The notes below the pieces were generated by a model, which made no database searches, was not told the DNA's origin, and was given only the letters and a program-made list of their open reading frames with translations. 64,000 nt of DNA, taken from positions 62,001 through 126,000 of the forward strand of contig JACPSL010000038.1 of NCBI GenBank assembly GCA_016193285.1, in the 5' to 3' direction. This DNA is from Candidatus Melainabacteria bacterium. GTDB taxonomy: Bacteria; Cyanobacteriota; Vampirovibrionia; 2-02-FULL-35-15. The translations under genes were made by a program, and so were the position numbers. Shown piece after piece: positions 14,936 to 41,717 of the stretch. Each line of letters opens with the position of its first letter. Within the stretch, counting starts at the first letter, position 1.

Positions 14936-16591
14936 TTAAATTTGTTCTCTGTATCGTTGTGCAATTGGCATCCTCCATCCATGACCAAATGACCTGCTTG
15001 TTAACTTTAATCCAGGAGCAGCTTGATATCTTTTGTACTCACTTATATCTATCATATTACAAACTTTTTGAATAGTTTCTTCTGGTATACCATTCTTTAT
15101 CATTTCTTTTAATGGAAGATGTTCTTCAACATATGAATTTAAAATTTTATCTAAGATATCATATGGTGGTAAGGCATCTTGATCTTTTTGATTTGGTTTT
15201 AATTCAGCTGTTGGAGCTTTTGTGATTGTACTTATAGGAATAACTTCTTTATTTTCTTTTCTATTTATATATTGTGCCAGTTTATAAACTAATGTCTTTG
15301 GCAAATCTGAAATTACCCCAAGTCCTCCACACATGTCGCCATATAATGTACAGTAACCTACAGCAAGTTCACTTTTATTCCCTGTAGACAGTACAAGAGA
15401 TCCATTTTGATTTGAAAGTGCCATTAAGATTAAACCTCTAATCCTTGCTTGTATGTTTTCTTCTGTATGGTTATGATTAGAAGATGAATTAAGTAAACCT
15501 AAAAATGCTTTAAAAGGTTCTTCTATTGAAACTATTTTTAATTCAATTCCTAAGTTATTAGCTAAATCTTTAGAATCTTTATAACTTGCACGGGAAGTGT
15601 ATCTTGATGGCATAAAAATTGCTTGAACATTTTCCTTCCCCAGTGTCATGGTAGCTATAGTTGTAACTAAGGCTGAATCAATTCCGCCTGATAAACCAAT
15701 AATAACTTTTTTAAAACCACATTTTATTGTGTAGTCACGTAAACCACATGTAATTGCTTGTAATAATTCGTCCATATCATTGTAGAGACACTCCATCGGA
15801 GTGTCTCTACTTACAATAATTTGATTGCTGTGAAACTCAAACATTTGTAAATCTTCTTTAAAAGATTTTAATCTTAAGCATACATTTCCATCTTGATTAA
15901 TTACACATGAGTTGCCATCGAATATAAGTTCATCATTTCCGCCAACCTGGTTTACATAAATAAGAGGGATCTTATGTTTCTTTGCACATTTTTTTAAGAT
16001 ATCTTCTCTTAATTTTGGTTTGCCAATAAAATAAGGTGAAGCAGAAGAGTTTATTAAAAAATCAATCTTTTGTTTTGCAAGTATGCTTATTGGATCAATA
16101 TGATATCTAGGTTTTGTCCAGCTTAAATCATCATGCCATACATCTTCACAGATTGACAGCCCAATTTTTTTATTAAGTAATTCAACACATTTAATAGTCT
16201 TGCCAGATTCAAAATATCTGTCTTCATCAAAAACATCATATGTTGGCAGTAAAACTTTTTGTCTTGTGCAGATTATTTTTTTATCTTTAATTACTGCAAG
16301 AGAATCAAACAGGTTTTTCCCTCGATCTTGGTTTTCTTCCACAAAGCCTGTAATTATAGTAATTGTTGATTTAATTTGTTGGGCTAATGTATTTAAATAT
16401 TTTTTATTGTCTTCAATAAATTGTTTTTTTAGTAAAAGGTCTTTTGGTGGATAACCACATAAAGCAAGTTCTGAAAAAATAATTAAATCTGAGTCTCTTT
16501 TAGATGCTTGATCAATATTTTTTAAAATCTTGTTTAGGTTATACTCAAAATCACCTATTGTTGGATTAATTTGTGCTAAAGCAATTTTCAT
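14936..16591 (-). CDS. nadE: Glutamine-dependent NAD+ synthetase
   Basis: Converts nicotinic acid adenine dinucleotide to NAD+ using ammonia from glutamine. The N-terminal nitrilase-type glutaminase domain (residues 1-255) has the triad E41, K112 and C148 (GLSICEDVW). The C-terminal ATP-pyrophosphatase synthetase domain has SGGIDS at 301-306 and STGNKSE further on. The 551-aa length fits the two-domain form. A 29-bp palindrome (15782-15810) is in frame in the interdomain linker, around residues 260-271. mqnA follows directly downstream. Confidence 0.95.
   Translation of the reverse strand: MKIALAQINPTIGDFEYNLNKILKNIDQASKRDSDLIIFSELALCGYPPKDLLLKKQFIEDNKKYLNTLAQQIKSTITIITGFVEENQDRGKNLFDSLAVIKDKKIICTRQKVLLPTYDVFDEDRYFESGKTIKCVELLNKKIGLSICEDVWHDDLSWTKPRYHIDPISILAKQKIDFLINSSASPYFIGKPKLREDILKKCAKKHKIPLIYVNQVGGNDELIFDGNSCVINQDGNVCLRLKSFKEDLQMFEFHSNQIIVSRDTPMECLYNDMDELLQAITCGLRDYTIKCGFKKVIIGLSGGIDSALVTTIATMTLGKENVQAIFMPSRYTSRASYKDSKDLANNLGIELKIVSIEEPFKAFLGLLNSSSNHNHTEENIQARIRGLILMALSNQNGSLVLSTGNKSELAVGYCTLYGDMCGGLGVISDLPKTLVYKLAQYINRKENKEVIPISTITKAPTAELKPNQKDQDALPPYDILDKILNSYVEEHLPLKEMIKNGIPEETIQKVCNMIDISEYKRYQAAPGLKLTSRSFGHGWRMPIAQRYREQI
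15782..15810. repeat. Palindromic repeat, GTAGAGAC type, inside nadE
   Basis: Perfect 13-bp stem (GTAGAGACACTCC and its complement) with loop ATC. It falls in the linker between the two NadE domains, without disturbing the frame. Confidence 0.9.
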
Positions 16592-40140: not shown

Positions 40141-40707
40141 TTATAATTTTGCTATTTGATCAAAAGATAATTCAACTGGTGTTGATCTTCCAAAAATACT
40201 TACCAATGCTTTAACTGTTTCTCTTTCTTCATTAATTTCAGTTATCTCACCAATAAAATCCTCAAACGGCCCTGACTGGATTTTTACTGATTCACCAACA
40301 ATAACATCAATAATCTTTTTGCCTTCTTTTGTCTTTGTAAACACTTGGCTCTTTCTTAGAATTCTTCTTACCTCTGATGGTGGGACAGCAAGTGGTTGTT
40401 TATTTGCACCAATAAATCTTGTTACACCTGGAGTATCTTTAATTATTCTCCAGGTACTATCATCCATAATCATTTCAATTAATACATACCCCGGGAATTC
40501 ACGTTCTTTTTTCTGGACTCTTTTACCATCATGAATCTTAGTAACATCTTTTTCAGGTACTATTACATTAAAAATCTTGTCATCAGCACTTAGAGTCTTT
40601 ATTCGTTTCTCAATATGTTCTTTTACCTTGTTCTCATGGCCTGAGGCAGTTTGAACAACATACCAATTTCTTGTTTGTGGTTTTCGTGCTTGTTTTGACT
40701 TTAGCAT
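40141..40707 (-). CDS. nusG: Transcription termination/antitermination factor NusG
   Basis: Binds RNA polymerase to aid processivity and couple transcription to translation or Rho. The NGN domain starts RNWYVVQTASGHENKV at residues 13-28 and includes FPGYVLIEM. The C-terminal KOW domain shows VKIQSGPFEDFIGEI. Length 188 aa. It follows secE by 14 bases as usual, but no ribosomal protein operon (rplK) follows. Instead the strand leads to nusA. Confidence 0.96.
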   Translation of the reverse strand: MLKSKQARKPQTRNWYVVQTASGHENKVKEHIEKRIKTLSADDKIFNVIVPEKDVTKIHDGKRVQKKEREFPGYVLIEMIMDDSTWRIIKDTPGVTRFIGANKQPLAVPPSEVRRILRKSQVFTKTKEGKKIIDVIVGESVKIQSGPFEDFIGEITEINEERETVKALVSIFGRSTPVELSFDQIAKL

Positions 40708-40721
40708 AAATTTTCTTGCCT

Positions 40722-40973
40722 TTAAAAAAGTCTACCAGTAAAAAAGTCAGCAACTAACTTAAAAACCTTATCCATAGCAAAAATAATACCAGTAATTATA
40801 GCTACTAGCAGCATTACAGAGAAAAACTCTGTAGTAGTTTGTTCTCTTGAAGGCCAGGTTATTTTTAAAAACTCACTTTTAACCTCAGACAAAAACTGCT
40901 TAAGGTTAAAAGGTTTAGTCTCTATCTCGACCTTTCCATTATCAGTCTCTTTCTCACTCATTGCTATTGCCAT
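40722..40973 (-). CDS. secE: Preprotein translocase subunit SecE
   Basis: Small essential subunit of the SecYEG channel. The amphipathic segment EVKSEFLKITWPSREQT precedes one transmembrane helix (about residues 50-72), the standard arrangement of single-helix SecE. Length 83 aa. The ATG at 40973 has AGAGGT 11 bases upstream; a second ATG follows at codon 5. First gene of the secE-nusG unit; divergent from tRNA-Trp. Confidence 0.93.
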   Translation of the reverse strand: MAIAMSEKETDNGKVEIETKPFNLKQFLSEVKSEFLKITWPSREQTTTEFFSVMLLVAIITGIIFAMDKVFKLVADFFTGRLF

Positions 40974-41103
40974 AATTGGTTTTTACCTCTTGTATATTGT
41001 ACATTACAGTGTAAATATTAAATTGGTAAAGTATAATTTTCTAGTGCAGTACTACTATGCTCTTTTTGATCTTCTGATTTCTGCTCCTCTGATTCTCTGG
41101 AAT

Positions 41104-41176
41104 GCGCCCTTAGTTCAGTTGGTAGAACGCAGGTCTCCAAAACCTGATGTCGTAGGTTCGAGTCCTACAGGGCGCG
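41104..41176 (+). tRNA. trnW: tRNA-Trp (CCA)
   Basis: Complete cloverleaf: acceptor GCGCCCT/AGGGCGC (41104-41110, 41169-41175), D arm GTTC/GAAC, anticodon arm CAGGT/ACCTG with anticodon CCA at 41137-41139, T arm GTAGG/CCTAC with TTCGAGT, and discriminator G. No encoded 3' CCA. tRNA-Trp beside secE-nusG is a widespread arrangement, though here it is divergent. Confidence 0.96.
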
Positions 41177-41187
41177 AGTAAAAGAAT

Positions 41188-41226
41188 AACGCTCAAGATT
41201 TTCTAAAGACGAAAATCTTGAGCGTT
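41188..41226. repeat. Long hairpin between tRNA-Trp and its partial copy
   Basis: A 15-bp perfect stem, AACGCTCAAGATTTT and its complement, around a 9-base loop. No T run follows on the + strand, so it is not a classic terminator. Confidence 0.75.
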
Positions 41227-41303
41227 GTGACAAGAGGCAAACTGGAAGTCTGTGGAAGTGCAAAAGCCGAGTCTCGAGGCTGGAGCACGATTATAAAAAA
41301 GAA

Positions 41304-41353
41304 GCAGGTCTCCAAAACCTGATGTCGTAGGTTCGAGCCCTACAGGGCGCGAG
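41304..41353 (+). repeat. Duplicated 3' part of tRNA-Trp (attachment-site-like)
   Basis: 50 bases identical, with one mismatch (T to C in the T loop side), to 41129-41178, covering the anticodon arm, variable loop, T arm, acceptor 3' strand and two flanking bases. The 5' half of the tRNA is missing, so it cannot be a working tRNA. This is the shape of an att site left by an integrase that targets a tRNA gene. Confidence 0.85.
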
Positions 41354-41377
41354 GGTTAAACTGGGAGGATAAATAAC

Positions 41378-41554
41378 ATGTCAAAAAAAGTTACAGGTCC
41401 TGTTTTCAAAATAGAAGACGATCTTTATGGGATGACTAAAAAACAGATAGCTGAAGAGGTAAGGATTATGAGAGAGAGAGCTGAAAGAGTAAGGCAAAGA
41501 CTAGATCAAAATGTTTCGTTTGTATTGAAAAAAAAAGATGATATGACAAAGTAA
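41378..41554 (+). CDS. Small basic/helical protein, 58 aa
   Basis: An ATG at 41378 behind GGGAGGA (41363-41369) opens a 58-codon frame, beginning MSKKVTGPVFKIEDD and ending KKKDDMTK. The middle is a charged helix (EEVRIMRERAERVRQRL). Unknown function. It begins 24 bases after the partial tRNA copy, so it may be a leftover of an integrated element or a free-standing small protein. The good ribosome-binding site and amino-acid composition support real coding. Confidence 0.5.
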   Translation: MSKKVTGPVFKIEDDLYGMTKKQIAEEVRIMRERAERVRQRLDQNVSFVLKKKDDMTK

Positions 41555-41717
41555 GTCATACGGCAGGAGTCAATTTTGGAATGTGAATATAGCCGTCAAA
41601 GTTCATTATTTCAGTTCTAACGTCCATTACGAGGGCGTGAATTAGTGGACAGAAATCAGTGGTCAGAGGAACAGATGTTTTGTATTCAAAGTAGAAATAG
41701 TGTTGATTTAAGTAGCC

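Follow-up and report, generated by a model that had tools for sequence, protein, structure and literature searches.

Duplicated tRNA-Trp 3' end in a Candidatus Melainabacteria genome surrounds a dispersed double-hairpin element that may spread in a homing-like manner

Duplicated tRNA halves are routinely interpreted as the attL/attR scars of an integrase, as islands moved by tRNA-targeting tyrosine integrases leave part of the tRNA repeated across the insert while the gene is restored. Whether this explains the tRNA-Trp locus of a Candidatus Melainabacteria genome (G000, 1.81 Mb) was the question here. The locus lies in the window, i.e. the whole 64-kb stretch of contig C38 that was analysed, and an earlier note on this DNA had tentatively read it as such a scar, with an element that appeared to be lost or very small. 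The complete tRNA-Trp (CCA) gene is located at 41103-41177 on the plus strand (ARAGORN; 73.1 bits with Rfam RF00005). A repeat search confirmed the duplication as it had been described: positions 41129-41178, which are the last 49 nt of the tRNA and one flanking base within the functional gene (T1; direct repeat D1), recur on the same strand at 41304-41353 (T2) with 49 of 50 nt identical (98%, one mismatch) and a spacing of 175. On its own, T2 scored 27.5 bits as a tRNA, under the Rfam cut-off of 29, and judging from its letters it would be a non-functional tRNA. The idea of T2 as a tRNA mimic was rejected at this score, with no matching acceptor 5' strand seen by eye in the spacer.

The spacer of 125 nt between the two copies contains a perfect hairpin (hairpin 1, 41188-41226; inverted repeat I5), then an imperfect one (hairpin 2, 41258-41288), and then GATTATAAAAAAGAA, with an A-rich right end of the TATAAAA type (41289-41303) abutting T2, all on the plus strand. 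The first hairpin had been reported as perfect with 15 bp; it is indeed free of mismatches, but its arms (41188-41203 and 41211-41226) measured 16 bp around a 7-nt loop. The second, found by RNA folding, pairs GTGC-aaa-AGCC with GGCT-gga-GCAC across a 3x3 internal loop, an architecture that hairpin 2 also has elsewhere. The sole ORF listed over the spacer is 40 aa long and on the opposite strand. Around the window copy and five loci with copies or their relatives, Rfam gave no curated family match for the element; the exceptions in these loci were tRNA, a sub-threshold 6S and a sub-threshold Plastid-ycf2 on the tRNA itself (minus strand).

A 58-aa ORF (41378-41554, plus strand) starts 24 nt after T2, as previously stated. 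It had no Pfam hit over the cut-off, no NCBIfam hit and no relative in the family genome contigs searched, and was rejected as cargo on these three counts; it is counted with the flank rather than as a demonstrated component of the element. Two other repeats were observed close by. A degenerate CTGATTCT-type repeat is present at 41060-41102, upstream of tRNA-Trp, and likewise in front of several of the family's tRNA genes (L029, L030, L032, L034, L037, L038). A second short dispersed repeat family is represented by a 42-74-bp sequence at 41564-41637, which recurs in three places in G001 (L023 4475-4402, 4069-4004 and 3531-3490), within a run of small ORFs and partly directly after stop codons, and once in G004 (L036 5523-5466).

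The relatives used for comparison were identified as Candidatus Melainabacteria, some of them from groundwater. On the 5' side of tRNA-Trp, secE and nusG (40141-40973, minus strand, in the window), with further genes where the stretch reaches, are kept in all 10 other family genomes. None of the proteins encoded downstream in the window was found beside tRNA-Trp in these 10 genomes, bar a weak histidine-kinase match far away in G007. With one side conserved and the downstream genes not found there in relatives, the 3' end of tRNA-Trp can therefore be considered a boundary. The earlier note had suggested looking for an occupied site in relatives, and one was found: in G007, about 0.7 kb with two ORFs, one of them DUF5674, lies between a full and a partial tRNA-Trp, while in G002, without that insert, the gene that follows it in G007 stands directly after tRNA-Trp. 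In G008, 67 bp separate tRNA-Trp from a 3' piece. Integrase genes of about 370-390 aa adjoin other tRNAs of the family, several with partial-tRNA repeats (mostly 38-51 nt), and the two large integrases of G000 are at tRNA-Pro and tRNA-Asp. An integron attC/integrase origin was considered and rejected, as the G000 integrases tested scored far below the integron-integrase cut-off.

Three observations at other tRNAs or in other genomes are recorded here. In G001, a 554-aa large serine recombinase (L023 14654-16318), with a Toprim/primase-like gene as neighbour, reads into the 3' end of tRNA-Trp (16306-16380), making this locus another element using tRNA-Trp. The tRNA-Tyr of G004 (L070 9118-9369) is followed, near an integrase gene, by two tandem 84-bp units, each with a short spacer, not a double hairpin of the present kind by eye, and an exact 48-49-nt tRNA 3' part. 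At tRNA-Gln of G000 (L091 12910-12935), the 5' 26 nt are repeated 90 bp upstream, which resembles the 5'-half repeats beside some integrases.

The varied inserts at tRNA-Trp and the integrases beside other tRNAs with partial-tRNA repeats made the scar a reasonable idea. In its classical form, an element whose tyrosine integrase targeted tRNA-Trp would have produced the attL/attR-like copies and then been reduced by deletion to 125 bp, of which the hairpin sequence is the remnant. The half-tRNA repeats near integrase genes, the G007 insert with the empty site in G002 and the large serine recombinase abutting tRNA-Trp in G001 are all in its favour.

The loss of the element is not supported, however: the spacer is itself a member of a dispersed, structurally conserved family of double hairpins (dh element), with the layout AAGYGAAG-hairpin1-linker-hairpin2-TATAAAA and copies of about 80-130 nt. 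A first covariance model, R1, was made from 19 copies including that of the window (matched at 41190-41294, plus strand), and gave 167 matches in 10 of the 11 family genomes (61 in G009, 24 in G002, 21 in G010, 18 in G006, 13 in G001, 10 in G004, 7 in G005, 5 each in G000 and G007, 3 in G008 and 0 in G003). As R1 contained the window copy, a second model, R2, was built without it from 24 copies, all from other genomes. R2 had one match in the 64-kb window, a full match to the tRNA-Trp spacer (41189-41297, plus strand, 33.4 bits, E 1.6e-4, the E-values of the tool being rough). A near-exact pattern search, which treated the spacer as a homogeneous repeat, was abandoned because it returned mostly chance hits. 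A literature search, with subscription journals mostly outside its coverage, found no description of the dh element.

For alignment A1, 5 of 23 reference copies with poorly placed ends were dropped and one other was added; alignment A2 was restricted to 24 copies with a similar hairpin-2 length, the ones from which R2 was built. In these copies from other genomes, RNAalifold gave two hairpins that share one design: a foot of 2 bp, a 3x3 internal loop, a stem and a loop. Of the 16 base pairs, 11 show compensatory double changes, and both hairpins covary. Paired cells amounted to 93.7% compared with 80.1% after shuffling, and the covariation score of 0.477 compared with 0.227 for shuffled alignments, none of 500 reaching 0.477, and at most 0.102 with slid partners. 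Since both pairing and covariation exceed the controls, the dh element has a conserved structure on a drifting sequence. A GRAG-like motif precedes both hairpins in most of the 24 copies in A2. Six R1 matches in G006 (C11, C23, C31, C35, C41) share an identical E-value and score and may represent a larger element in recent, identical copies, with L311, L312 and L316 covered by the census scan only. A second double-hairpin family near tRNAs and start codons, with hairpin 1 around CCGATTYATTCGG, the loop CTTGT in hairpin 2 and the same TATAAAA end as the dh element, was also seen (L014 ~1420-1500, L041 ~3320-3236, L065 ~190-270, L111 ~380-470).

The surroundings of 141 of the 167 R1 matches were surveyed in a census with overlapping position classes. 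Copies lay downstream of a tRNA on the same strand (16/141), ended 0-9 nt before a tRNA (13/141) or had their right end facing a tRNA 3' end (16/141), a tRNA share that may be inflated because most training copies of R1 came from the vicinity of tRNAs. A further class of 28 copies ended immediately ahead of an ATG that opens an ORF of 40 aa or more; in this class the GGAG of hairpin 2 often appears to take the position of a ribosome-binding site. Direct repeats of what lies upstream, in most cases a gene 3' end of about 20-90 nt, flank 23 of the 141 copies: 11 at tRNAs, out of the 16 same-strand followers, and 12 at other genes. In 300 random windows, no flanking direct repeat reached 30 bp at 85% identity or more, so the repeats are not due to chance; the cut-off for the 23 cases, of which several are short (17-27 bp), was at least 17 bp, which is less strict than the control threshold and was chosen once the data had been seen. 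At G009:C2:85731, a repeat of 16 bp was excluded from the 23. Copies free of a repeat include the 13 located 5' of tRNAs, the 16 facing a tRNA 3' end and 27 of the 28 before an ATG.

Where a copy lies behind a gene and points the same way, the order T1-element-T2 is often seen, at tRNAs, a 6S-like RNA and protein genes. A full tRNA, a double hairpin with TATAAAA or a variant, and a tRNA 3' part follow each other at tRNA-Lys of G000 and of G002, tRNA-Thr(CGT) of G010 and G007, tRNA-Met of G009 and G004, tRNA-Leu of G010, tRNA-Arg of G005 and tRNA-Thr(TGT) of G006. G006 has a further element after tRNA-Lys, where the repeated piece comes from tRNA-Leu, one gene upstream. tRNA-Thr has no duplication in G000 and G009 and has one in G010 and G007. 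Among the cases outside tRNAs, a gene ending in QPRNLAKSVTVE and the stop codon is shared by G009 and G005, and others are at genes of G001 and G006. They also include a gene with the end WHFNHKDCDKYDILDIS..EE.K and the stop codon in G009, to which G010 has a relative, and the 6S-like RNA of G010 (44.6 bits, cut-off 46.4), with a similar sequence in G009. In the window's own genome, 41 tRNAs were screened, most of them with flanks of about 4 kb in both directions. Apart from a 14-nt match at a tRNA-Ser, which is set aside, a copy of the 3' part within 500 bp was found only at tRNA-Trp and tRNA-Lys(CTT), and both repeats surround the same kind of element.

This distribution bears on the integrase scar, which is partly supported. 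The insertion footprint at the 3' half of the tRNA holds, and tRNA-targeting tyrosine integrases with half-tRNA repeats do exist in the family. However, 12 sites outside tRNAs, mostly at protein genes, show the repeat-element-repeat layout as well, and separate deletion events would each have had to spare this kind of element at tRNAs for Trp, Lys, Thr, Met, Leu and Arg as well as at protein genes. The stretches around integrase and Y1 transposase genes were without the dh element at E<=0.1, bar one weak hit. The integrase expected next to the same core did not appear either: the genome has seven PF00589 matches, none of them on C38, and no second tRNA-Trp core elsewhere. With the common spacer and no integrase match on the contig, the scar was set aside as the main reading and is considered unlikely.

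A different origin of the repeats is indicated by the comparison of T1 with T2 where they are coding. Among nine coding cases, two were identical and seven differed; in these seven, 23 of 28 differences fell at third codon positions (p 1.5e-7) and 22 of the 26 differing codons were synonymous. T1 and T2 differ here as two orthologous coding ends do. A free copy behind a gene would not keep to third positions, therefore T2 was coding until recently, and the concentration of differences there makes it probable that T1 and T2 stem from different lineages. The tRNA-Lys genes of G000 and G002 suggest the same by their acceptor ends, T2 having AAGACCC as in the gene of G006 and T1 having GTGACCC as in G008. 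In G010, T2 of tRNA-Thr is identical to the G009 gene over the shared 51 nt, and T1 is not.

These observations suggest a homing-like import of a gene end together with the element, with the old end left behind. Donor DNA with a gene end and the element would enter the recipient's version of that gene by copying or recombination, where the donor end (T1) would restore the gene and the element would follow it. The recipient's own gene end would be displaced behind the element as T2, and the right junction would form at the A-rich TATAAAA end of the element. We therefore favour, with a probability of roughly 60%, the reading of the tRNA-Trp duplication as the footprint of an inserted, non-coding dh element that is still present as the spacer and spreads in a homing-like manner. 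As T1 and T2 differ by one base at tRNA-Trp, the import step cannot be seen at this locus; for the window copy it is proposed by analogy with the other copies. The import, its direction and the enzyme are steps that we infer, next to the observed element family, structure, repeats and codon pattern. More tentatively, the dh element could spread by homing although it has no endonuclease gene itself, served by a host or trans-acting recombinase, and the 3' ends of tRNA, 6S-like RNA and protein genes would then be replaced by the donor version plus the element. Several findings count against homing: gene-end repeats are missing at 118 of the 141 copies, half-tRNA repeats also surround inserts other than dh elements (tRNA-Trp of G007 and G008, tRNA-Tyr of G004), and in G005:C74 and G010:C9 T2 is followed by a truncated element start, which tandem duplication with deletion would also explain.

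Such a tandem duplication, or fork slippage, could have occurred in place at a pre-existing hairpin, giving T-X-T-X with a later deletion of the second element, and hairpins are prone to slippage. The truncated starts in G005:C74 and G010:C9, where T1 equals T2, and a left-arm stub at tRNA-Thr of G009 speak for this explanation, but the third-position bias between T1 and T2 and the two types of tRNA-Lys would not be expected of copies made in place, and T2 of tRNA-Met in G009 directly abuts an inverted element. It seems improbable to about the same degree as the scar.

Searches for candidate enzymes gave no RVT_1 match in the 11 genomes, no integrase match on C38 and a presence of Y1 that does not track the element. 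A Y1 transposase (RAYT/IS200-type) acting on REP-like hairpins, with the repeats as an unusual by-product, would agree with the GRAG-like tetranucleotide mostly preceding both hairpins in A2 and with the IS200 transposase and RAYT-like protein of G000, although the latter is below its family cut-off (59 against 80 bits). Y1 transposases were found in 6 of the 11 genomes, but five element-bearing genomes (G001, G002, G004, G005, G008) have no Y1 match, G003 has Y1 and lacks the element, and no dh element was found near Y1 genes in the stretches searched. This explanation was set aside as quite improbable. Retroposition, by which RNA copies of the element were inserted with long target-site duplications and the A-rich end is a tail, would account for that end, the RNA-like structured body and the direct repeats of variable length. 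It is the least probable of the explanations and was rejected, since reverse transcriptase matches (RVT_1) were found in none of the 11 family genomes compared with 3 of 14 control genomes, and since the differences between T1 and T2 are those of orthologous coding ends.

The tRNA-Trp duplication is real, and ordinary integrase scarring is probably not its best reading. The same half-tRNA mark here surrounds a structured repeat of about 100 nt that makes no distinction between tRNA, 6S-like RNA and protein genes and seems to arrive with a gene end of its own. Should the import prove true, this would be a very small homing-like bacterial element with an unfamiliar footprint and an additional route for the exchange of gene 3' ends between lineages, and recoded gene ends behind hairpins could be searched for in many genomes.

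Compared with known systems, the dh insert shares with tRNA-targeting integrase islands the partial-tRNA repeat and the restored gene, but has no integrase, is also at non-tRNA genes and consists of one common miniature insert. The small dispersed repeats of cyanobacteria are likewise very small and thought to be mobile, in hosts related to Melainabacteria; they are shorter than the dh element, and we know of no gene-end duplication by them. The DHE of Allomyces are double-hairpin elements of mitochondrial DNA. Repetitive hairpin and double-hairpin elements of mitochondria are similarly small, dispersed and thought to be mobile; unlike the dh element they are mitochondrial, and gene-end duplication is undescribed in the passages on them (PMC2800124). 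REP/RAYT systems, as far as described in parts of PMC2817692, resemble the dh element in their dispersed extragenic hairpins and a short conserved motif at the hairpin foot, whereas the dh element has two directly oriented hairpins, a fixed TATAAAA right end, duplicated gene 3' ends and no correlation with Y1 transposases. The closest arrangement, in which an imported version has replaced a gene 3' end, a mobile element follows and the native end persists further downstream, is given in passages of PMC3630166 on the mORF/homing-endonuclease hybrids of fungal mtDNA, in Allomyces atp6 and Glomus atp6, atp9, cox2 and nad3, where the duplicated ends are less identical in DNA than in protein. The dh cases have this feature as well, their duplicated 3' ends differing as orthologous coding ends (23/28 third positions). 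In contrast to the fungal inserts, which according to the same passages carry an endonuclease ORF, the dh insert is non-coding, bacterial and about 90-125 nt long, and is also found at tRNA and 6S-like RNA genes.
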